Assembly: GCF_000332235.1 (NCBI RefSeq)
Contig: NZ_CM001775.1
Coordinates: forward strand, 2,262,230 to 2,326,229
Source: Geminocystis herdmanii PCC 6308
GTDB taxonomy: Bacteria > Cyanobacteriota > Cyanobacteriia > Cyanobacteriales > Cyanobacteriaceae
Length of the DNA stretch: 64,000 bases
Direction: 5' to 3'
Shown here: in pieces, positions 9,424 to 39,427 of the stretch
Layout: every line of letters starts with the position of its first letter
Position numbering within the stretch: the first letter of the stretch is position 1
Translations under genes and position numbers: made by a program
The notes under the pieces: model-generated
The model's input: only the letters and a program-made list of their open reading frames with translations
The model's database searches: none
Told to the model about the DNA's origin: nothing

Positions 9424-11858
9424 CTAAAAAAGTAATTCTATACGTTCATTAAGATCTAACTTAAACGTACCATAGGGATTAACATGACTAAAAATCAAAG
9501 GGGTAATTGCCCGTAAATCCCCTTGATTAAGCCTTGAATGCCAATGAGATTGAGCTAAAACCTGTTGAATCATTAAAGTATTAACATAGACTAAACTAAT
9601 TTGTAATAAATGTAAAGACAATACGGATAACTCTTGACTTTCTAGGCGATTAGAGGCAAACTCACCACCTTTACCGTAGAAGATAAAATCATTAACACCA
9701 TTCCATCTTTCCACCACATTCAAACCTTCATTAATTTCCCTTCTGATAGCTTCTGAATTCAAATATTCACTCAGGAAAATGGTTTTCACTGCCCTACCCA
9801 ACTCCAACAACGCCAAATAAGTAGGATGCTTCAAGGCTGAGCGATTAAATCGTTTTAAAATAGCTTCAGTCTCTGCTGTACCTAATCTTAAGGCTGTAGC
9901 ATATTTTACCATCTGGTCATATTGTTGGCGAATTAAATCCCAATTAATTGGGCGAGTCAGAATCGGCTGTAAATGAGGATAGCTATTACTTTGACCCAAG
10001 TCGGGAAGATATAGCCTTTGCACCTTAATCCTTTTGAGTCGAGGCATTAACTGAAATCCTAGTAAGTGACTAAAAGCAAACGCTACTTCACTTTGTCCAT
10101 GACTATCAACATAGTTTTTCTTGACATCCATATCAGTACAATGACGTAAAACCCCTTCAATCATTGCTGCCACTTCCGATGAAGATACAGTTTTTAACTG
10201 AGAATAAATGCAAGTAGATTTCTTTTCAACGTGCCAATAAATCATTACCCCACGTCCACCATAACGCAGATGATATTGACTCATTAAGTTTTGCTCCCAT
10301 GAACCAAAATGTTTACTATCACTCGCACAAGTGGTAGTTCCTTCCCCCCAGATTTCAGGATTACGAATCTCAAAAATAGCATTAACCACCGAGGCTATGG
10401 CACTTCTAAGTTGGTCTTTTTGAATGTAGCGACGGCGTACATAAAGTAAATCATGATAATTTTCGCTATTTATACCCGTATTAATGCGGTTAATCCTTTC
10501 TTTGCCGTCATCGGTTTTTTCAATAATAATATCTTTCCAACCTGTTTTTAATACCCCTTCAATGGGTATTTTTCTTCCAAGTCATAATATTTAGCTTTAC
10601 TATCAGTGTATTTTTTAAGCAGTTCTAAGGCTAAAATTATGGGGCGGTGAATGTCATTATTAGAGCGAAATTCCAGCACTTCTAATAGTTGGGGTATCAT
10701 CCGACGATAATGGGTAGCAAAGGAACTACGCATCACAGTATGAACTTTTTGGCGATAGGCTGTATTGGTGGATTTATATTCTTTGACTAGGTTTTTCAGG
10801 GTTTCTTGACTAACAACAGGATAAACTACGGTTTGAATCACTCCTTCAGGATTAGCTAGGGCTACTTCGGCAATACGAAAAAGGATATTAGTTTTTCCAT
10901 TTACGAGTTTAAAGTCTTCAATCAGTTCTTTATTAATACGTCTTTCGGCTCTAGTTCCAATACGTTTGATAATAGAGACTAGGATTTCAATGAGATTATC
11001 GGTTATTTCTTGACTACGTTGATGACAAAAAGCACTCATTAATGTGTAGCGTATTGGTTCAGAATGTTGTCGTAAGTCATAGGGAGATTCTGTGGCGGCT
11101 CTTTGACGGTATTTTTGAATGATTTTGGCTGATATTCCTTGAAATAAATCTGTGGATAATCCTACGGCTCGAATTCGTTTTAGTTTTTCAATTTCTGTGA
11201 GAAAGGTATCTAAGCCCACTGGACCTGGATCTGTTTTAATAAAGGCAAAGTCGGAGGTTTTTAGTTTTGGAGAAGATGTTGATTCATCTTCATTATTGTC
11301 ATCCGTTTTGAGAAGAATATCAATTTGCTCTTTGATTATCGTGGTTAATTTTGATGTTACCTGATTACACCATTGACTTTCCGATACTGATAAAGCATGA
11401 CGAATTAAGCGTTCTATTCTATTGACGGTAGGTGGTTCAATTTGTAATTCACGAAACTTTTGATAAACAATTTCTTTGATGGACTCAATTTTTTGTTCGT
11501 TGGGAATAATTTCCGCTATCAGCCAATTGCTTATTTGTTCACTATCCTGTGTTGTTGCTGTTCTAAAGTTAAATAGAGTCCGAATTTCAGCTCGATAAAC
11601 TTTTGCACTACGTCCTTGAGGATTATAGTCTGAGTAAGAGCTAACAGGAATATTAAGTTGATTAGCAATGTAAGATATTATTAAATCAGGTATTTGTTCC
11701 GAAGTATCAGGAAAACGAGCCCTTAGTTGAAAATATTTGAGTATTATAGCGAAACCTATTTTATTTCCACCAATCTTATTAGTTAGTAATTTTAATTCTT
11801 GGGGAATAAGTGTCCAATTTTCGATTAGCTCTTCTGTTTGCCAATTTTTCTTGAGCAT
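9424..11858 (-). pseudogene. tnpA: Tn3-family transposase, frameshifted
   Basis: Two frames make one TnpA. The N-terminal frame (10548-11858) begins MLKKNWQTEELIENW and has the DUF4158-like region. The C-terminal frame (9424-10389, open upstream to about 10560) has the DDE core: [13 protein letters not shown] (first Asp), YVDSHGQSE (second Asp) and [11 protein letters not shown] (Glu). They join around 10560, where EEKYP should run into IEGVLKTGW. The summed length of about 810 residues is short of the usual ~1000. By memory of the family, the part between KERINRI and [13 protein letters not shown] is missing about 180 residues, an in-frame deletion. Inactive. Confidence 0.9.
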
Positions 11859-18964: not shown

Positions 18965-21900
18965 TTAATTGTTTCTTTGAGTTAAGGCTAAAGCAGCCTC
19001 TTTCCATCTACCCATTTTGCGTAACAAGTTAGCGGCTTTGAGTTTATTGCCAGACAGTTGCCATGCTTTTATCGCATCTTCCCACTTACTCTCACCTTGT
19101 TGTTCACAAGTATAAGCTACTTTATCCCATTGAGAGATTTTACGCCAACATTCCTCTGCTAATAACCAATTTAAACTTTGTTCGTAGCATAATCCAGCTT
19201 TCATAATCTTATCTTGATCTTCACTATCTAACCACGATCGAGCGGCATTATCCCATTGTTTCAACTGTTGATATGCGATCGCTACCATATCATATCTTTG
19301 CAAATTTTGCCAACAATCCGCATTTTTTTGCCACAATTTTATCTTTTGATAACAAATAGCCGCTTTTTCCCAGTCGGGAATTAACTCCCATACCTCTCCA
19401 GCCGTTTCCCATTTCTCCTGTTTTTCACACATCAAAGCCACCTTATCCCATGCTTCCACCTTGCGCCAACAGTCTTCAGCTTGAGGAAAAAATTGGATAG
19501 TTTGATAAACTTCCCCAGCTTTCTCCCATTCCTGCGCTAAAGTATAAGCCTCCCCCACCTTATGGAGTTGGTTTTGTTTTTCGCACATCAAGGCAACCAT
19601 TAACCAATTTTCCAAATCACGCCAAAGGTTTTCTGCTAAATGCCACAACTCCCCATTTTGATAACAAAGCGCAGCCTTTTCCTTTTCAGAAATTTGTAAC
19701 CAAGCGAAGGAGGCTTTTTCCCATTGTTGTTGATTTTGCCAAATAATAGCAGATTCCTCCCATTTCCCTTGTTTTTCACAAGCAACCCCTGCTTTTTGCC
19801 AATCCCCAATCACTAACCAACAAGACTCTGCTTTACGCCAATTTTCTACTACCTCATAACATCTTCCAGCGTTTGCCATGTCATCGATTGCTAACCAAGC
19901 CTCCGCCGATTTTTCCCACTGCTGTTGTTTTTCACACAGTAAAGCAACTTTTTCCCAGTTTTGCAGGTGACGATAACAAGTCTCTGCTTTTTCCCAGTCG
20001 TTATCTTTTTCATAACAAACCCCTGCTTTTTCTACTTCTTCTATTTTTAGCCATGCCTCACTTGCCTGTTGCCATTTTTCTTGAGTCTCAGAAAGTAAAG
20101 CGACTTTTTCCCAATTTTCCAGTTGACGATAACAGGTTTCTGCATTTTCCCAGTCGTTATCTTTTTCATAGCAACCCCCTGCTTTTTCTACTTCTTCTAT
20201 CTTTAACCACGCCTCACTTGCCTGTTGCCATTTTTCTTGAGTCTCAGAAAGTAAGGCGACTTTTTCCCAATTTTTCAGTTGACGATAACAGGTTTCTGCA
20301 TTTTCCCAGTTGTTATCTTTTTCATAGCAACCCCCTGCTTTTTCTACTTCTTCTATTTTTAGCCATGACTGCGCTGCTTTATCCCATGCCTCCTGTTTTT
20401 CCCATAACAAAGAAGCGGTTTCCCATTTACTTTGTTTTTCGTAAACTTCCCCTAATTTTGTCCAATTTTCACTTTTTTGATAACATTCCTCTGTTTTAGC
20501 CCAAAATTCTGCATTTTCATAGCAAAAACCTGCATTATCCCACTGTTTAATTTTTTCCCATCGTTTAGCTGACTTTTCCCATTGTTGTAAATTTTGCCAA
20601 ATAATCGCAGAATCTTCCCATTTGCCTTGTTTATCGCACATCAAAGCCGATTTTTGCCAGTTTTCCAGTTGTCGATAACAGTTTTCAGCTTCTCCCCATG
20701 CTTCTATCTTTTCATAACAAAAGGCAGATTTTTCTAAAGGCTTGACTTTTTGCCAAGTTTGCGCTGCGTCTAACCATTTTTCTTGTCTTTCACACATCAA
20801 CGCCACATTTACCCATTGTTGTAATTGTCGCCAAGAGTTTTCGGCTTTTTGCCAGTTTTGCGCTAATTCATAATCGAGGGAAGCCTTATTTAAGTCTCCC
20901 AAATCTCTCCAAATATCGGCGGAGTCGTGCCATTTAGATTGTTTTTGACAGAGGATAGCGACTTTTTCCCAGTTTTGCAGTTGACGATAACAAATTTCGG
21001 CTTTATCCCATGCCTCTACTTTTTCATAGCATAATCCAGCCTTAGCAAATTGTTTGAGTTTTTCCCATGCCTTTCCTGCTTCGGAAAATTTTTGTGATTT
21101 TTGCCAAATATTAGCGGAGGTTTCGTAATTGCCTTGTTGAAAACAACAGAAGGCTACCTTATCCCAATTTTCTAATTCTCGCCAAAGGTTTTCTGCTAGT
21201 TGCCATAATTCTCCTTGAGAGTAGCATTTAGCGGCGGATTCTTTTTCGTTAATTTTTAACCATGCGGAAGAGGCTTTTTCCCATGCTTGTTGTTTTTGAT
21301 AAGTAAGGGCAAGTTTTCTCCAATTTTCTAATTTTAACCAACATGATTCTGCTTTTGACCAAATTTCACTTTTTTCATAGCATAATCCTGCTTTTTCTAA
21401 GTCTTTTGCCATTTCCCAAGCATTACCTGCTTTTTGCCACTGTTTTAATTTTTGCCAAATTTGCGCTGCGGATTGCCATTTATGTTGAGATTCACAACAG
21501 GAGGCGATATTCGGTAAGTTATTTAGTTTACGCCAACAGGCTTCGGCTTCCTGCCAACGCATTCCCCTTTGATAACATTGCGCCGCTTGAGGTAATTGAG
21601 AGATTTTCAGGTAAGATTTAGCGGCTTTTTCCCATTGTTGTAATTTTTGCCAAATTTTTGCGGATTCTTGCCATTTTTCTTGTTGTTGACAACAGTAGGC
21701 GATTTTTTCCCATTGATTTAATTTTCGCCAACAGTTTTCTGCTTTTTCCCATTGAGATATTTTTTCATAACAGATTCCTGCTTTTTCCCAGTTGTCGAGT
21801 TTTTGCCATTGTTGTGCGGCTTTTTCCCATTGATTTTCTTCTTCTCTAATTAAGGCTATTTTTTCCCATGCTGATATTTTTTCCCACATCAAGGCACAAC

Positions 21901-24265
21901 GGGATAATTCTCCTTTTTGTCGATAATTTTTTTCGGCATTGAGATAACATTTTTCAGCTTCGTTAATATCTTCTAAGTTGATATATTCATCTCCTGCTTT
22001 TTCCCATTCTTGATTGAGTTTTAAACATTGTAAATAACTATCATTATCTTTAGCTTGTTGATAACAAATTCCCGCTAATTTATAAAATTTATTAGTTTGA
22101 AAATATTGCCCTTTTTCTTGCCATTGAATTGGGGTTAAATTTGCCCATTTTTTTAACCAAAGATTATCGTCTATTTCCTGCCAACAGTTAATAGCTTTTT
22201 CCCAATTTTCTAAAATATTCCATAAGTCTCCTGCTTTTCCCCAGTTGCCTTCTGTTTCTTCTATATAAGGATGAATCTCGTTAGCTTCTCGATATTTTTT
22301 GTTTTGCCGATAGCATTCGTAAGCCTGTTTCCATGCTCCATTACTATGATAGAATTTTTCTGTAGAAATAGAGTTTTTATTGTCGGATTGGGGGCTTAAA
22401 AAGTTTTCTAAATCTTCAAAACTACCTTTACTTAAACAATGACTTAAAAAGGGATACTTTTCTTCTATATTAAAATTATTTTCATAGCAGTAAATTTTTT
22501 CTTTAATACTACCTAAACAAAGATATAAATATTTTCTTAAAAGGCTATAAGCTATGTCTTGATATTTTATATTATAAAAATAGCTAAAAAAGTTATATAA
22601 AATAATTTCGTTAAATTTTAATCCTTCTATTTCTTGAAGGGTAAGAATACGACTGTTAATGATTTCGGGATTATTTTGAAAATGATTTAATAATTTTTCT
22701 TTTTCTTGGTTATTGATAACAACGATACTTTTATCTAAGGCAAAACTTTTACTAATACTTAAAAATTTCCATTCGGGAGTAGTAATCCATAAACAGTTAT
22801 TATTATGTTGCAAAATATGGCTAGGTTTAAAAGTATCTTGATTGGCAGATTTTTTCCACAATTCATTGTTTAAAACTTCCTTATGAAAATTATTCAAGTT
22901 TTCGTTACCGATGAGATTTATTGTGAGTTGGCTGTGATTAATTTTGCCGTTATTGTCAGGGTAAACTAAGCTATTAATTTTTCTTTCCCATGCTTCTAGG
23001 GGATAAATTATTTTGGCTCGATCGAAACTCAAACAACACTTATGATAGGAGTTAGTCTGACTATCTTTTTTCAAAAAACGAAATAGTAATTGTTGAGATA
23101 AATCGTTTAGCTTATCAATATTATCATAATAGATTCGATCGACGATACCGTTAAAGGAAGGAGGAAGATTGAGAGAAATAGAAGTTACTAAATCTGTGAC
23201 ATCCCAATAGTTATTATCTGTTAACCATTGTTGATATTTAAGAGTTAATTGATAGATTTTGTTAGGCTTAATATCAGGGGGTAAAAAACTATATTGCTGA
23301 ATTTGTTGACTATAATCTTCTAAAGAAATTAAACTACTTTCTCCTTGGGGATAATTACTATTTCCTTTTAATAAATAAGAGATTTCTTGCCATAAATACC
23401 ATGACTCAATATCTTCTATATTATAATTAGCTAAAAATTTCTCTTTAAACTTTTTATAGGTAATTTCTTTGCTTCTGATAAACCTATCTGGATTTAAGAG
23501 ATTATTTTCTCTACCAAAATTAAGACAAAAATTGACAAAATTATCGATAACTAAATTATTATTTGTGTCTGCTTTTAAAATTTCTTTGATTAAAGAAAAT
23601 ACTTGCTGTTGACTACTTTGATTATTGCTAAGATAAAGGGTGATTTCTTGAGGATATTGGAAACTATCTTGAATTGCTTTGATAACTGATACCGTTGTTT
23701 TTCCACTATTATTTAATCCTTCCAAAAGTAAAGGTAAAGACTTATTAATGCTGTTAATTTCTTCAACAGATAAGAGAATTTTTGACTTATTTTCTGAGTT
23801 ATTATTTAAGTTATCTAGGTAATAATAGTAAAAATCTTCGGGCTTATTTTCTAAATCTTTTCTCCCGATTTTTAAGTTTTCTCTACTTTTAAATAAAGTA
23901 ATTATATCAGAAGAAAATAACTCGTTTTCTTTATTTAAATTTATATCTAAATCAATAATTTTGATGGATAAGCCTTCTTTGAATACAATAACTCTTTTTA
24001 ATTTAGTTTTATCAAAAATATTTAAAATTTTAACAATATTTTGTCCTTCTAATTGATAGTAAGTAGCTAATATTTCTAGTTTATAACCAAAATTAATACG
24101 ATAAATAATTTGTTCTGATATATTTTTAGCAATTTCTGATACTAAGATATTATTATTAATAATATTCTCTAAATTGAGTAAAATTTTTTCTCGATTATCT
24201 TCATTTAATAAACAAATCTTTTTTTGTAAGTTATTACTAATACTAAGTAGGTATTGATTATTCAT
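18965..24265 (-). CDS. Giant protein: degenerate UvrD/TRANK1-like helicase domain plus ~85 helical 13-residue repeats
   Basis: A 1766-residue protein. Residues ~1-640 look like a decayed superfamily-1 helicase. Walker A GLNNSGKTT is near residue 185. The motif II position reads YYDNIDKLND where DEVQD is expected. Motif V reads LTLQEIEGLKFNEIILYNFF, close to TRANK1-like proteins. From ~640 to the end the chain is tandem 13-residue units with W, A, C/Y or W at fixed places (WEKAENCWRKLNQ type), four units forming a 52-residue super-repeat. Such helical arrays are protein-binding scaffolds. No signal peptide or membrane segment is seen. Likely a scaffold or sensor whose ATPase is weak or lost; real function unknown. 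Confidence 0.8.
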   Translation of the reverse strand: MNNQYLLSISNNLQKKICLLNEDNREKILLNLENIINNNILVSEIAKNISEQIIYRINFGYKLEILATYYQLEGQNIVKILNIFDKTKLKRVIVFKEGLSIKIIDLDINLNKENELFSSDIITLFKSRENLKIGRKDLENKPEDFYYYYLDNLNNNSENKSKILLSVEEINSINKSLPLLLEGLNNSGKTTVSVIKAIQDSFQYPQEITLYLSNNQSSQQQVFSLIKEILKADTNNNLVIDNFVNFCLNFGRENNLLNPDRFIRSKEITYKKFKEKFLANYNIEDIESWYLWQEISYLLKGNSNYPQGESSLISLEDYSQQIQQYSFLPPDIKPNKIYQLTLKYQQWLTDNNYWDVTDLVTSISLNLPPSFNGIVDRIYYDNIDKLNDLSQQLLFRFLKKDSQTNSYHKCCLSFDRAKIIYPLEAWERKINSLVYPDNNGKINHSQLTINLIGNENLNNFHKEVLNNELWKKSANQDTFKPSHILQHNNNCLWITTPEWKFLSISKSFALDKSIVVINNQEKEKLLNHFQNNPEIINSRILTLQEIEGLKFNEIILYNFFSYFYNIKYQDIAYSLLRKYLYLCLGSIKEKIYCYENNFNIEEKYPFLSHCLSKGSFEDLENFLSPQSDNKNSISTEKFYHSNGAWKQAYECYRQNKKYREANEIHPYIEETEGNWGKAGDLWNILENWEKAINCWQEIDDNLWLKKWANLTPIQWQEKGQYFQTNKFYKLAGICYQQAKDNDSYLQCLKLNQEWEKAGDEYINLEDINEAEKCYLNAEKNYRQKGELSRCALMWEKISAWEKIALIREEENQWEKAAQQWQKLDNWEKAGICYEKISQWEKAENCWRKLNQWEKIAYCCQQQEKWQESAKIWQKLQQWEKAAKSYLKISQLPQAAQCYQRGMRWQEAEACWRKLNNLPNIASCCESQHKWQSAAQIWQKLKQWQKAGNAWEMAKDLEKAGLCYEKSEIWSKAESCWLKLENWRKLALTYQKQQAWEKASSAWLKINEKESAAKCYSQGELWQLAENLWRELENWDKVAFCCFQQGNYETSANIWQKSQKFSEAGKAWEKLKQFAKAGLCYEKVEAWDKAEICYRQLQNWEKVAILCQKQSKWHDSADIWRDLGDLNKASLDYELAQNWQKAENSWRQLQQWVNVALMCERQEKWLDAAQTWQKVKPLEKSAFCYEKIEAWGEAENCYRQLENWQKSALMCDKQGKWEDSAIIWQNLQQWEKSAKRWEKIKQWDNAGFCYENAEFWAKTEECYQKSENWTKLGEVYEKQSKWETASLLWEKQEAWDKAAQSWLKIEEVEKAGGCYEKDNNWENAETCYRQLKNWEKVALLSETQEKWQQASEAWLKIEEVEKAGGCYEKDNDWENAETCYRQLENWEKVALLSETQEKWQQASEAWLKIEEVEKAGVCYEKDNDWEKAETCYRHLQNWEKVALLCEKQQQWEKSAEAWLAIDDMANAGRCYEVVENWRKAESCWLVIGDWQKAGVACEKQGKWEESAIIWQNQQQWEKASFAWLQISEKEKAALCYQNGELWHLAENLWRDLENWLMVALMCEKQNQLHKVGEAYTLAQEWEKAGEVYQTIQFFPQAEDCWRKVEAWDKVALMCEKQEKWETAGEVWELIPDWEKAAICYQKIKLWQKNADCWQNLQRYDMVAIAYQQLKQWDNAARSWLDSEDQDKIMKAGLCYEQSLNWLLAEECWRKISQWDKVAYTCEQQGESKWEDAIKAWQLSGNKLKAANLLRKMGRWKEAALALTQRNN
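20023..20360 (-). repeat. 156-bp tandem duplication inside the giant repeat gene
   Basis: The block starting CTGCTTTTTCTACTTCTTC recurs at 20023, 20179 and 20335, exactly 156 bp (52 codons) apart. The first two units are nearly identical and neighbouring units are more diverged. This marks recent unit gain by slippage or unequal recombination and keeps the frame. Confidence 0.85.
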
Positions 24266-24384: not shown

Positions 24385-24957
24385 TTAATTTATTTTTACC
24401 CGTTTATACAAATCTGCTAAACTAATTTCTATCTCAACGGATTCTAAGGTTAACACATCCTGTTGACTCATTAATTCTGTTAATAACCATTGATGTTTAC
24501 CTACTTTGCGATATAATTCAACCCGATAATCTTCTTGATCAATCAAAATATACTCTTTTAATTCAGGTATAGTGCGATAAAAAGCAAATTTTTGATTCTT
24601 GTCAAATCCTTCTGTTGAAGCAGATAAGATTTCAGCAATTAAGCAAGGATTCGTTACTGCCGTTTGTTTTTCATTAGTAAAGTAAGGCTCACCTTTAATT
24701 ACCATAACCTCAGGATAAAAATAATTATCACCATGAGGAGGTAATAACTTCATATCACTCATAAAAACACTATACCCTAAATCTTCTAAGGCTAACAACA
24801 ATCGAGCATGAAGTTTTCCTGTTAGAATATTATGATTAGCAGAAGCACCTGCCATTTTAATTATTTCTCCTTCTATATATTCGCTTTTTTCTTCGCTGAT
24901 TTCTTCTTGTGCAAGATATTCTTCAACGGTGATGGGTAATACGATCGAACTTACCAT
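24385..24957 (-). CDS. Uma2 family putative endonuclease (DUF820)
   Basis: A 190-residue protein, MVSSIVLPITVEEYLAQEEI onward; this start is preferred to the 24969 codon because it matches the family opening. It contains YIEGEIIKMAGASANHN, DNYFYPEVMVIKGE and LIAEILSASTEGFDKNQKF, the PD-(D/E)XK-like core of Uma2/DUF820. These genes are highly amplified in cyanobacteria and their substrate is unknown. A second member is at 54188-54814. Confidence 0.85.
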   Translation of the reverse strand: MVSSIVLPITVEEYLAQEEISEEKSEYIEGEIIKMAGASANHNILTGKLHARLLLALEDLGYSVFMSDMKLLPPHGDNYFYPEVMVIKGEPYFTNEKQTAVTNPCLIAEILSASTEGFDKNQKFAFYRTIPELKEYILIDQEDYRVELYRKVGKHQWLLTELMSQQDVLTLESVEIEISLADLYKRVKIN

Positions 24958-25094
24958 TTTCAACCTCAACTTTCACTACTGGTATATTAATCCATTATCT
25001 ACATTTTTTTGTGTTTGAGTCAAAATTACTGACAGGCTTGATTTGTGGAGATTGGTGGGCATTGCCCACTCTACGTTTAGTCGCAGTAAGTAAA

Positions 25095-26734: not shown

Positions 26735-26953
26735 ATGACTAAGTTAGATATAAAGCAAATTTCTCCTAATTTATCTGGATTAATCGATTTAGCTATCAAA
26801 GGAGAAACAGTTATCATTACACAAAATGATCAACCAGTAGCACAAATTTCTGCGATTAAACGCCCTTTAAAACGAGGTAGTGCAAAAGGTAAGGTGTGGA
26901 TGTCACCTGATTTTGATGAACCTCTTGAGGATTTTAAGGATTATACCATATGA
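26735..26953 (+). CDS. Phd/YefM-type antitoxin
   Basis: A 72-residue protein. SPNLSGLIDLAIKGETVIITQ followed by NDQPVAQISAI is the Phd/YefM DNA-binding fold typical of antitoxins paired with PIN toxins; the C-terminus (MSPDFDEPLEDFKDY) is the toxin-wrapping tail. It overlaps the PIN gene by 4 bases (ATGA). Expected to neutralise the toxin and autorepress. Confidence 0.85.
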   Translation: MTKLDIKQISPNLSGLIDLAIKGETVIITQNDQPVAQISAIKRPLKRGSAKGKVWMSPDFDEPLEDFKDYTI

Positions 26954-27336
26954 ATTTATTAATAGATACTCATATTTTTATTTGGTTTATTAATGATAAT
27001 CCTCTATTAAGTAATGATTTAAAAGATGTCATTGAAGATTCAAATAATCAAATTTATTTAAGTCTTGCTAGTCTTTGGGAAATGTCGATTAAATATAATT
27101 TAAAAAAACTCAAACTTAGTACTTCCTATGAGGAATTTATCGAAACAGAAGTCAATCAAAGTTGCCTTAATTTGCTAAATATTGAGATTAAGCATTTTAA
27201 AATTAATGCTAATTTACCTTTATACCATAGAGATCCATTCGATCGACTCATTATCTCTCAATCTATAGCAGAAAATATGCCCCTTATTTCTGTAGATTCT
27301 GCGTTTTCTTTGTATTCTATCACTCTTATCAATTAA
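26950..27336 (+). CDS. PIN-domain (VapC-type) ribonuclease toxin
   Basis: A 128-residue PIN protein. The acidic metal-binding positions are LLIDTHIFIWF (Asp 6), SLASLWEMSIK (Glu), HRDPFDRLI (two Asp) and ISVDSAF (Asp). The HRDPFDR signature defines the subgroup usually paired with Phd-like antitoxins. It overlaps the antitoxin. Probably an intact toxin that cleaves RNA. Confidence 0.9.
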   Translation: MNLLIDTHIFIWFINDNPLLSNDLKDVIEDSNNQIYLSLASLWEMSIKYNLKKLKLSTSYEEFIETEVNQSCLNLLNIEIKHFKINANLPLYHRDPFDRLIISQSIAENMPLISVDSAFSLYSITLIN

Positions 27337-38058: not shown

Positions 38059-38104
38059 CCACACTGTATTTTTCGCTTAAGAAACACCCACAAAATCAGT
38101 GTGG
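38059..38104 (+). other. Left subterminal hairpin of the TnpB element
   Basis: CCACACTG and CAGTGTGG form a perfect 8-bp stem around a 30-base loop, 88 bp before tnpB. IS200/IS605-type elements carry such imperfect palindromes near their ends. The exact cleavage site cannot be placed. Confidence 0.5.
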
Positions 38105-38191
38105 GATGAATTGCCGTCCAGATTTATCTGCACAAATCAGAAATCTTATGTTATTATAAATCTAGGTCAAAAATTAAATTCGCCTAAGACA

Positions 38192-39427
38192 ATGATTAAT
38201 CTCAACTACGAGTACCGCATATACCCAGAGCCATCACAGGAGGAAACCCTCTTGCGGTGGCTTTTTGTGTGTAAGCGGGTGTATAATTATTGTCTGGCAG
38301 AACGAAAAGATTGGATAAAATCGAGGAAGTCTCCTATTGATCAATGTTCGTTGGTTAATGAGTATATTATTCCTGCGGAAACGAAATATCCCGACTATTA
38401 CTACCAAAAGCGACAACTAACGGAAGCCAAGAAAACAAATCCTGAATTGAAGGAAGTTCCATCTCAAGTTCTCCAAGAGGTTGTTGGTAAAGTCGATAAA
38501 ACTTTCAGGTCTTTTCATAATAGAGGGTATGGGTTTCCTCGTTTCCGCAAAAGGATTCGCTCAATGGTGTTTCCTCAATTCAAAACTAATCCTATTGTTG
38601 GTAATCAAATCAAACTACCAAAGATAGGCGATATTGAGATTAACTTACATCGACCGATTCCAGAAGGATTTGTGGTTAAGCAAGTCCAAGTAGTGAATAA
38701 AGCATCAGGTTGGTATGTCATTTGTACAATCCAGTCTGAGGGAAATATTCCTGATCCAATTCCCGACCTGTCTTATTCTAGTCTAGGTATTGATTTGGGA
38801 TTTTCCAGCCTTGTAGCTACATCCAGAAATGAGATTATTGATAGACCTAAGTTTTTAATCAGCTTACAAAGCAAGTTGACATCACTGCAACGTGAGCTAA
38901 AAGACAAAGTAAAGGGGTCTAATAATTGGAAAAAAGCCTGTAAGAAAATTGCACAGTTACATGAATATATCCATCGAGTCAGGAAAGATTATCATTTTAA
39001 ACTAGCTCATTATTTGTGTGATCAAGCCAAGATGATTTTCATAGAAGCAATAGACTTTAAGTCATGGGGGCGAGGAATGTTGCGTAAACATTCCCTAGAC
39101 TTTGCCTTCGGTGCTTTTGTCGATATTCTGACTCTAGTGGCGAAAAAAAGAGACGTATATCTTCTAAAAGTTGATAAGGATTATACGTCTCAAACTTGTC
39201 CAAATTGCAATACTCTTACAGGGAAAAAGGATTTGAAAGAAAGAATCCATAGTTGTCTTGAATGCGGTTTTACGATCGACCGTGACGTAGCCGCCTCTAT
39301 GATAATAGAACAACGTGGATTACTAGCCGTTGGGCAGACGGTGTTGCAGTCTGTGGAGGACAATGGTATCGGGGCTGTAGAGAAATCGATAGCTAGAGCC
39401 ATCCTAAGAAGCAGAAAATCCAAGTAG
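38192..39427 (+). CDS. tnpB: TnpB (IS200/IS605-type RNA-guided nuclease)
   Basis: A 411-residue TnpB. It has the N-terminal helix-turn-helix with YEYRIYPEPSQEE, RuvC catalytic residues Asp 201 (GIDLGFSSL), Glu 285 (IFIEAIDF) and Asp 365 (IDRDVAASM), and a zinc finger CPNC...CLECG before the last Asp. All key residues are present, so it looks intact. TnpB uses an omega-RNA from the element's right end to cut DNA. The frame opens at 38099, but MINLNYEYRIYPEP at 38192 is the family start. No tnpA is nearby: a solo tnpB (IS1341-type) element. Confidence 0.93.
   Translation: MINLNYEYRIYPEPSQEETLLRWLFVCKRVYNYCLAERKDWIKSRKSPIDQCSLVNEYIIPAETKYPDYYYQKRQLTEAKKTNPELKEVPSQVLQEVVGKVDKTFRSFHNRGYGFPRFRKRIRSMVFPQFKTNPIVGNQIKLPKIGDIEINLHRPIPEGFVVKQVQVVNKASGWYVICTIQSEGNIPDPIPDLSYSSLGIDLGFSSLVATSRNEIIDRPKFLISLQSKLTSLQRELKDKVKGSNNWKKACKKIAQLHEYIHRVRKDYHFKLAHYLCDQAKMIFIEAIDFKSWGRGMLRKHSLDFAFGAFVDILTLVAKKRDVYLLKVDKDYTSQTCPNCNTLTGKKDLKERIHSCLECGFTIDRDVAASMIIEQRGLLAVGQTVLQSVEDNGIGAVEKSIARAILRSRKSK

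Follow-up and report, generated by a model that had tools for sequence, protein, structure and literature searches.

On the minus strand of a 64,000-nucleotide stretch of DNA from Geminocystis herdmanii PCC 6308 (hereafter the window), positions 18965 to 24265 hold an intact gene with zero internal stops, whose 1766-residue product, judged by its sequence and predicted structure, is a pseudo-helicase. A UvrD-type core that keeps its P-loop and has lost its motor residues is followed by a very long array of 13-residue helical units. On balance we favor the view that this protein is a nucleotide-binding, non-unwinding scaffold whose shape is gated by the bound nucleotide. Its orthologs define what we call class III; a shorter sister group of decayed proteins is class II. 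The length of the frame agrees with an earlier sequence-only reading of the same DNA, and other parts of that reading are taken up below.

A UvrD-type core with decayed motor motifs

The helicase core occupies residues 160-620 (22406-23788; this and all further features of the gene lie on the minus strand) and appears to be catalytically decayed. Residues 11-644 are homologous end to end with L026, an intact UvrD-type member of the family (E 1.3e-47), and residues 162-612 are predicted to adopt the UvrD/Rep fold; the Foldseek/VIA comparison of the N-terminal model covered residues 161-614 and has little bearing on residues 1-160. The window protein shares this fold, the Walker A motif and the order of motifs with the UvrD/Rep/PcrA helicases of SF1A (PF00580/PF13361). 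It differs from them in lacking the catalytic Glu, the motif III Gln and the Arg residues of motifs IV and VI, and a Pfam search of the whole protein returned no helicase match. Walker A is retained as GLNNSGKTT (residues 183-191; 23693-23719), fitting the pattern GxxxxGK[TS] found in 22/22 decayed members, and the motif V region also survives. Motif II reads DNIDKLND (residues 381-388; 23102-23125), with the first Asp kept and the catalytic Glu replaced by Asn. At the motif VI position (residues 579-592; 22490-22531) the Arg signature, TRA or TRT in intact relatives, is gone; the columns of the motif III Gln, motif IV Arg and motif VI Arg hold Lys, Ile and Ser, respectively. The motif alignment therefore bears out the motif states claimed by the sequence-only reading.

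The same losses recur across the family. All scored motor residues are present in 20/20 intact members. The 22 decayed members all keep the Walker A Lys and the motif II Asp and all lack both the motif IV and the motif VI Arg; the Glu is lost from 21 (L034 retains it) and the motif III Gln from 20 (L040 and L042 retain it). Within class III, five of ten members carry Asp at the position of the Glu, and two retain the motif III Gln. Together, the homology to L026, the predicted UvrD/Rep fold and the losses common to decayed members uphold the earlier proposal of a decayed UvrD-type helicase. An unrelated NTPase with intact motifs is ruled out, the core being UvrD-like and its motifs lost. As far as the sequence can tell, an ATP-binding scaffold without helicase function is the best reading of this protein.

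A small N-terminal domain

The domain picture of the earlier reading was incomplete, in that it overlooked both the intact members of the family and a small N-terminal domain (residues 1-110; 23936-24265). Sequence matches, mostly weak, and predicted structure suggest that this domain is probably RelE-like. Its elements are predicted to follow the order b-a-a-a-b-b-b, and we take the strand and helix order of residues 6-85 to fit a RelE-like fold. Disjoint alignments show homology between the N-termini of class III and of the near intact members (E 9.3e-7); the latter in turn align in register but weakly with those of the distant intact members (E 0.043). Among the five distant intact relatives tested, all match YoeB (E 0.0003-0.003, below the curated cut-off) and four match HigB, again as weak, sub-threshold hits to the RelE/ParE toxin fold. 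A RelE search gave no match for the window fragment or for the N-termini of L024, L026 and L038, and the window domain lacks the basic KKLKG segment of the distant intact relatives. A profile search of the PDB produced seven weak matches, of which four were YoeB (E 0.23-1) and the top one was Csm6' (E 0.2). When scored against the best of 2000 shuffles, none of 26 near or decayed N-termini stood out with the distant RelE-like profile, and three of the 22 decayed ones (L012, L042 and L029), the window's not among them, did so with a combined profile.

The domain order of the window protein is that of intact cyanobacterial RelE-like/UvrD/repeat proteins (L024, L026, L028, L038, L035 and L076-L089) and of L045, from a Negativicutes MAG. 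These relatives differ from it in their complete motor residues, and their repeats vary: L024, L026 and L038 have the same W-rich 13-residue units in shorter arrays (27, 34 and 28 units), and L076, for example, has 34-residue TPRs. The UvrD protein L045 is intact, and its similar N-terminal domain scores 18 bits against the RelE-like profile, above 2000 shuffles; by its sequence, this architecture probably extends beyond cyanobacteria.

An array of 13-residue units modelled as single helices

In the window protein, a position-specific scan identified 81 units of 13 residues, beginning at residue 645. The array begins with irregular helical units (residues 645-786; 21908-22333), in which six units are separated by gaps, and continues with 69 units that run on without a single-residue gap (residues 787-1683; 19217-21907), each forming one helix where modelled. 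The last units and a conserved C-terminal cap follow (residues 1684-1766; 18968-19216), with inserts of three residues at 1684-1686 and two at 1726-1727. Of the 81 units, 59 have W at position 1 and 65 have W or Y at position 8. When the sequence after residue 640 was shuffled 20 times, gapless runs reached at most 2 units, as against 69 in the protein, which rules out chance repetition. About 85 strict units had been claimed beforehand; the unit length and the W start stand, while the count is 81 and the array has some gaps and inserts. A 52-residue super-repeat, likewise proposed, is present as steps of four units but is mixed with steps of five (65 residues), which gives rise to further lag peaks at 104 and 117. 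The spacing of anchor units is accordingly 52, 65 or 104, with the exceptions of 98 at the irregular start and 55 across the three-residue insert. Tandem 52-residue copies within the array are identical at up to 50/52 positions, and a recent 156-bp (52-residue) tandem duplication with 2.8 copies and 93% matches lies at 19938-20367. Antisense to the array, on the plus strand, is a 208-aa ORF (19873-20499) that is most likely a shadow of the repeats.

The AF2 model of residues 826-1293 (pLDDT 94) contains 36 helices, each unit consisting of one 10-residue helix and a turn. Identity within the window array is 23, 23 and 22% at lags 13, 26 and 39; the TPR relative L076, by comparison, shows 9% at lag 17 and 43% at lag 34. 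From this lag structure and the predicted helices, every helix of the array is an equivalent unit, with no A/B alternation as in TPRs, and the canonical TPR, a 34-residue unit of helix A and helix B, is ruled out. Pfam TPR_7 nonetheless scores 4.8e-12 over the window protein, and Pfam Clathrin scores 2.4e-15. The modelled array is a continuous stack of consecutive short helices, as in TPR-like or IFT-A-like alpha-solenoids. The earlier suspicion that a unit shorter than half a TPR might fold unusually is thus right as to the unit, a single 13-residue helix that forms no hairpin, and wrong as to the fold, which is a TPR/IFT-A-like solenoid and not exotic. Stacked short helices are what the array shares with IFT-A, clathrin-type and TPR solenoids; among the solved structures closest to it are IFT-A and other scaffold proteins, with IFT-A 8bbg_A as the top Foldseek match (E 2.1e-9) and 8f5p_B, also IFT-A, superposing at an rmsd of 3.2 over 105 residues. 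It departs from these solenoids in its strict single-helix unit of 13 residues, and whole-length superpositions are poor (TMq <=0.35).

The size of the array is near-constant, at 79-81 units, in five orthologs of 1762-1791 aa; three more have 72 (L041), 76 (L040) and 98 (L036) units. The last of these, a class III ortholog of 2173 aa in G009 with a main lag of 78, represents growth of the array in one lineage. Of 66 four-unit blocks, the number that best match at one offset is 62 in L002, 58 in L003, 48 in L037, 41 in L041, 32 in L005, 30 in L006, 26 in L040 and 25 in L042, the last being truncated by a contig end; in the more distant orthologs, about half the blocks or fewer do so. At unit positions 5-9, 11 and 13, identity between the same units of different orthologs (six genomes) is 2.2-3.1 times that between different units. 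By these sequence comparisons the array exceeds that of the near intact members in length and is collinear for the most part from one genus to another.

Distribution and selection

A tree of 42 rows, built with the motif columns excluded and with no root inferred, placed class III in one clade (100/100) and class II in another (91/86). A branch supported at 87/86, and present in 84% of bootstrap trees, divides both classes together from the intact members. Class III occurs in 10/15 genomes of the Geminocystis family, the window's included, with a stop-bearing fragment in G011, and near-intact members occur in 3/15 (G008, G009 and G011). The tree assigned class II members to 12/15, and G004, G005 and G014 have copies, either incomplete or interrupted by stops, that are consistent with class II and stand outside the tree. 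In 386 genomes drawn from the phylum, matches of class III strength (E below 1e-100) were confined to this family. At the level of the family, then, the class III gene is dispensable. Class II is more widely kept, and the genome of the window has a second pseudo-helicase paralog of this class (L021, G000:C1:1490500-1500500), with 1313 aa and DGVDKL at motif II. A separate cyanobacterial group, found in many genomes of the order, is represented by L090-L094; these five proteins have 1255-1425 aa, and their match to the helicase profile starts only at about residue 120-155.

Where it is present, the class III gene is under purifying selection, with dN/dS of 0.16-0.18 in four pairs, and its frames are open and near-constant in length across genera about 41% identical. 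Constraint is strongest on the repeats in three of these pairs (0.14-0.16), the exception being G006-G012, with 0.160 in the repeats against 0.158 and 0.143 elsewhere. The repeats are likewise under the strongest constraint in 3/3 class II pairs. Of these, two diverged pairs have a relaxed N-terminal domain (0.50-0.57, with 0.05-0.08 in the repeats), and in a third, close pair the values are 0.09 and 0.06. Two intact pairs gave overall values of 0.11-0.12.

Gene neighborhoods

Among ORFs of at least 90 aa in 19 neighborhoods, that of the window gene being one, no neighbor is conserved between genera, and the neighbors shared within a genus differ between lineages; an operon partner was dropped as a candidate for this reason. 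Nor did these neighborhoods reveal a conserved antitoxin gene next to the class III gene, as a type II toxin-antitoxin pair would have. In three genomes of one genus (G001, G003 and G004) a protein of 165-183 aa, 68-91% identical, is encoded near the class III gene in divergent orientation (L095 13766-14261, L096 6227-6776 and L041 5782-6331); it is absent from the window. G001 and G004 share six neighbors, and G006 and G012 share five, one of which is also found in G013. The class II genes of the window's genome and of G001 have two neighbors in common. What the neighbors of the window gene have in common with other neighborhoods is limited to small or common protein families, with identities of 27-36%.

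Near the class III gene the window also encodes a putative Uma2 nuclease (24385-24969) and a PIN-domain protein (26950-27336), neither of which lies beside the class III genes of relatives. Elsewhere in the window are a Tn3-family transposase gene, apparently split across two minus-strand ORFs (9424-11858; DUF4158 and DDE_Tnp_Tn3), and an IS605 OrfB/TnpB-like protein with a Cas12f1-like domain (38099-39427). An origin from mobile elements or phages was rejected as an explanation: there was no relative among 101 viral_contigs pattern matches, phages gave no match, and plasmids gave no more than two, both to distant UvrD proteins.

Models for the function of the window protein

Sequence comparison shows a head that is homologous to UvrD-type members of the family and has kept its P-loop and lost the residues for hydrolysis and coupling. 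In the explanation we favor, Walker A and the motif II Asp would let this head hold a nucleotide, ATP or some other, which it would not hydrolyze, and the head would not move on nucleic acid. Binding would set the angle of the two RecA-like lobes, and this angle would be passed through the junction at residues 645-786 to the long solenoid. Since the individually conserved units of the solenoid may dock one or more partner proteins, the whole would act as a nucleotide-gated scaffold. In its favor are the homology and fold of the head, the motif losses common to decayed members, the two decayed clades beside intact ones, the low dN/dS with constraint mostly strongest on the repeats, the near-constant array length, the correspondence of units between orthologs and the likeness of the array to scaffold proteins. 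Against it, a kept P-loop can be structural, the neighborhoods yielded no functional partner, the gene is missing from some family genomes, the length of the array is not rigid, unit correspondence falls off in the more distant orthologs, the repeats are not the most constrained part in one class III pair, and L034, L040 and L042 each retain one motor residue.

A rather less probable explanation is that the decayed core is a nucleic-acid clamp, gripping single-stranded DNA or RNA without moving on behalf of a partner enzyme recruited by the solenoid. The kept UvrD-type fold is consistent with this, and helicase relatives without helicase activity have been described, as for D. radiodurans PriA (PMC4504706). 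However, the stretch after Walker A, YVTYN or YIAYN in the intact L026 and L035, reads LYLSNN in the window protein. We consider it somewhat more doubtful still that the protein is a defense-type sensor, domesticated or active. STAND proteins combine an N-terminal effector, an NTPase and a C-terminal repeat sensor, and the domain order here is analogous; the intact relatives, moreover, score with GajB and other defense UvrD models of PADLOC. The window protein itself matches no PADLOC model at E<=1, those of GajB and other known defense UvrD proteins included, its N-terminal domain lacks the basic segment of its RelE-like relatives, and neither the neighborhoods, with nothing conserved between genera, nor the near absence of matches in phages and plasmids favors such a role.

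Slow decay of the gene, with the motor lost first and the rest to follow, would account for the missing motifs and for the family genomes in which class III is absent or, as in G011, reduced to a stop-bearing fragment; the dN/dS values, open frames and steady lengths across divergent genera make it improbable. Least likely of all, in our judgment, is a motor that has stayed active at a low rate, other residues standing in for the missing ones. This would be in keeping with the retention of the Walker A Lys and motif II Asp by all decayed members, with the Asp at the Glu position in half of the class III members and with the motif III Gln in two, but in the window protein the Glu, the Gln and both Arg are jointly missing.

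Relation to known proteins and implications

TRANK1 resembles the window protein in its general layout, a UvrD-type domain combined with helical repeats. D. radiodurans PriA and yeast Utp25 belong to other helicase families and are not known to carry a giant helical array. Both are called pseudohelicases in the titles of papers on them (for PriA, PMC4504706). In the open-licence literature, covered through titles and the starts of abstracts and short of a full search, we met nothing on a family that combines a dead UvrD-type head with a 13-residue array. The available part of PMC11980606 makes no mention of UvrD, helicase or TPR and indicates that many multidomain members are omitted there; that of PMC2701414 has no UvrD or helicase, and that of PMC5512222 does not describe the family. 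Each part is known, and it is the combination, a dead UvrD-type head and a strict single-helix array of 80 units, kept by a single cyanobacterial family alongside a shorter sister class, that was not met within this scope.

A bolder proposal, which we put forward tentatively and regard as possible more than probable, is that the array belongs to a solenoid class of its own, whose whole repeat is one 13-residue helix, so that odd numbers of helices can be gained or lost. Here it would have lengthened to a unit-addressed rod, about 80 helices long, attached to a dead helicase that is gated by nucleotide, making a giant bacterial scaffold comparable in design to the subunits of IFT-A and clathrin. 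The family provides a series from intact UvrD/repeat proteins to two classes of pseudo-helicase maintained by selection, so that the role of a helicase unable to unwind becomes testable with natural paralogs. The array itself is an exceptionally regular natural single-helix solenoid, of use to protein design and to the question of how unit identity is maintained in long repeat arrays.
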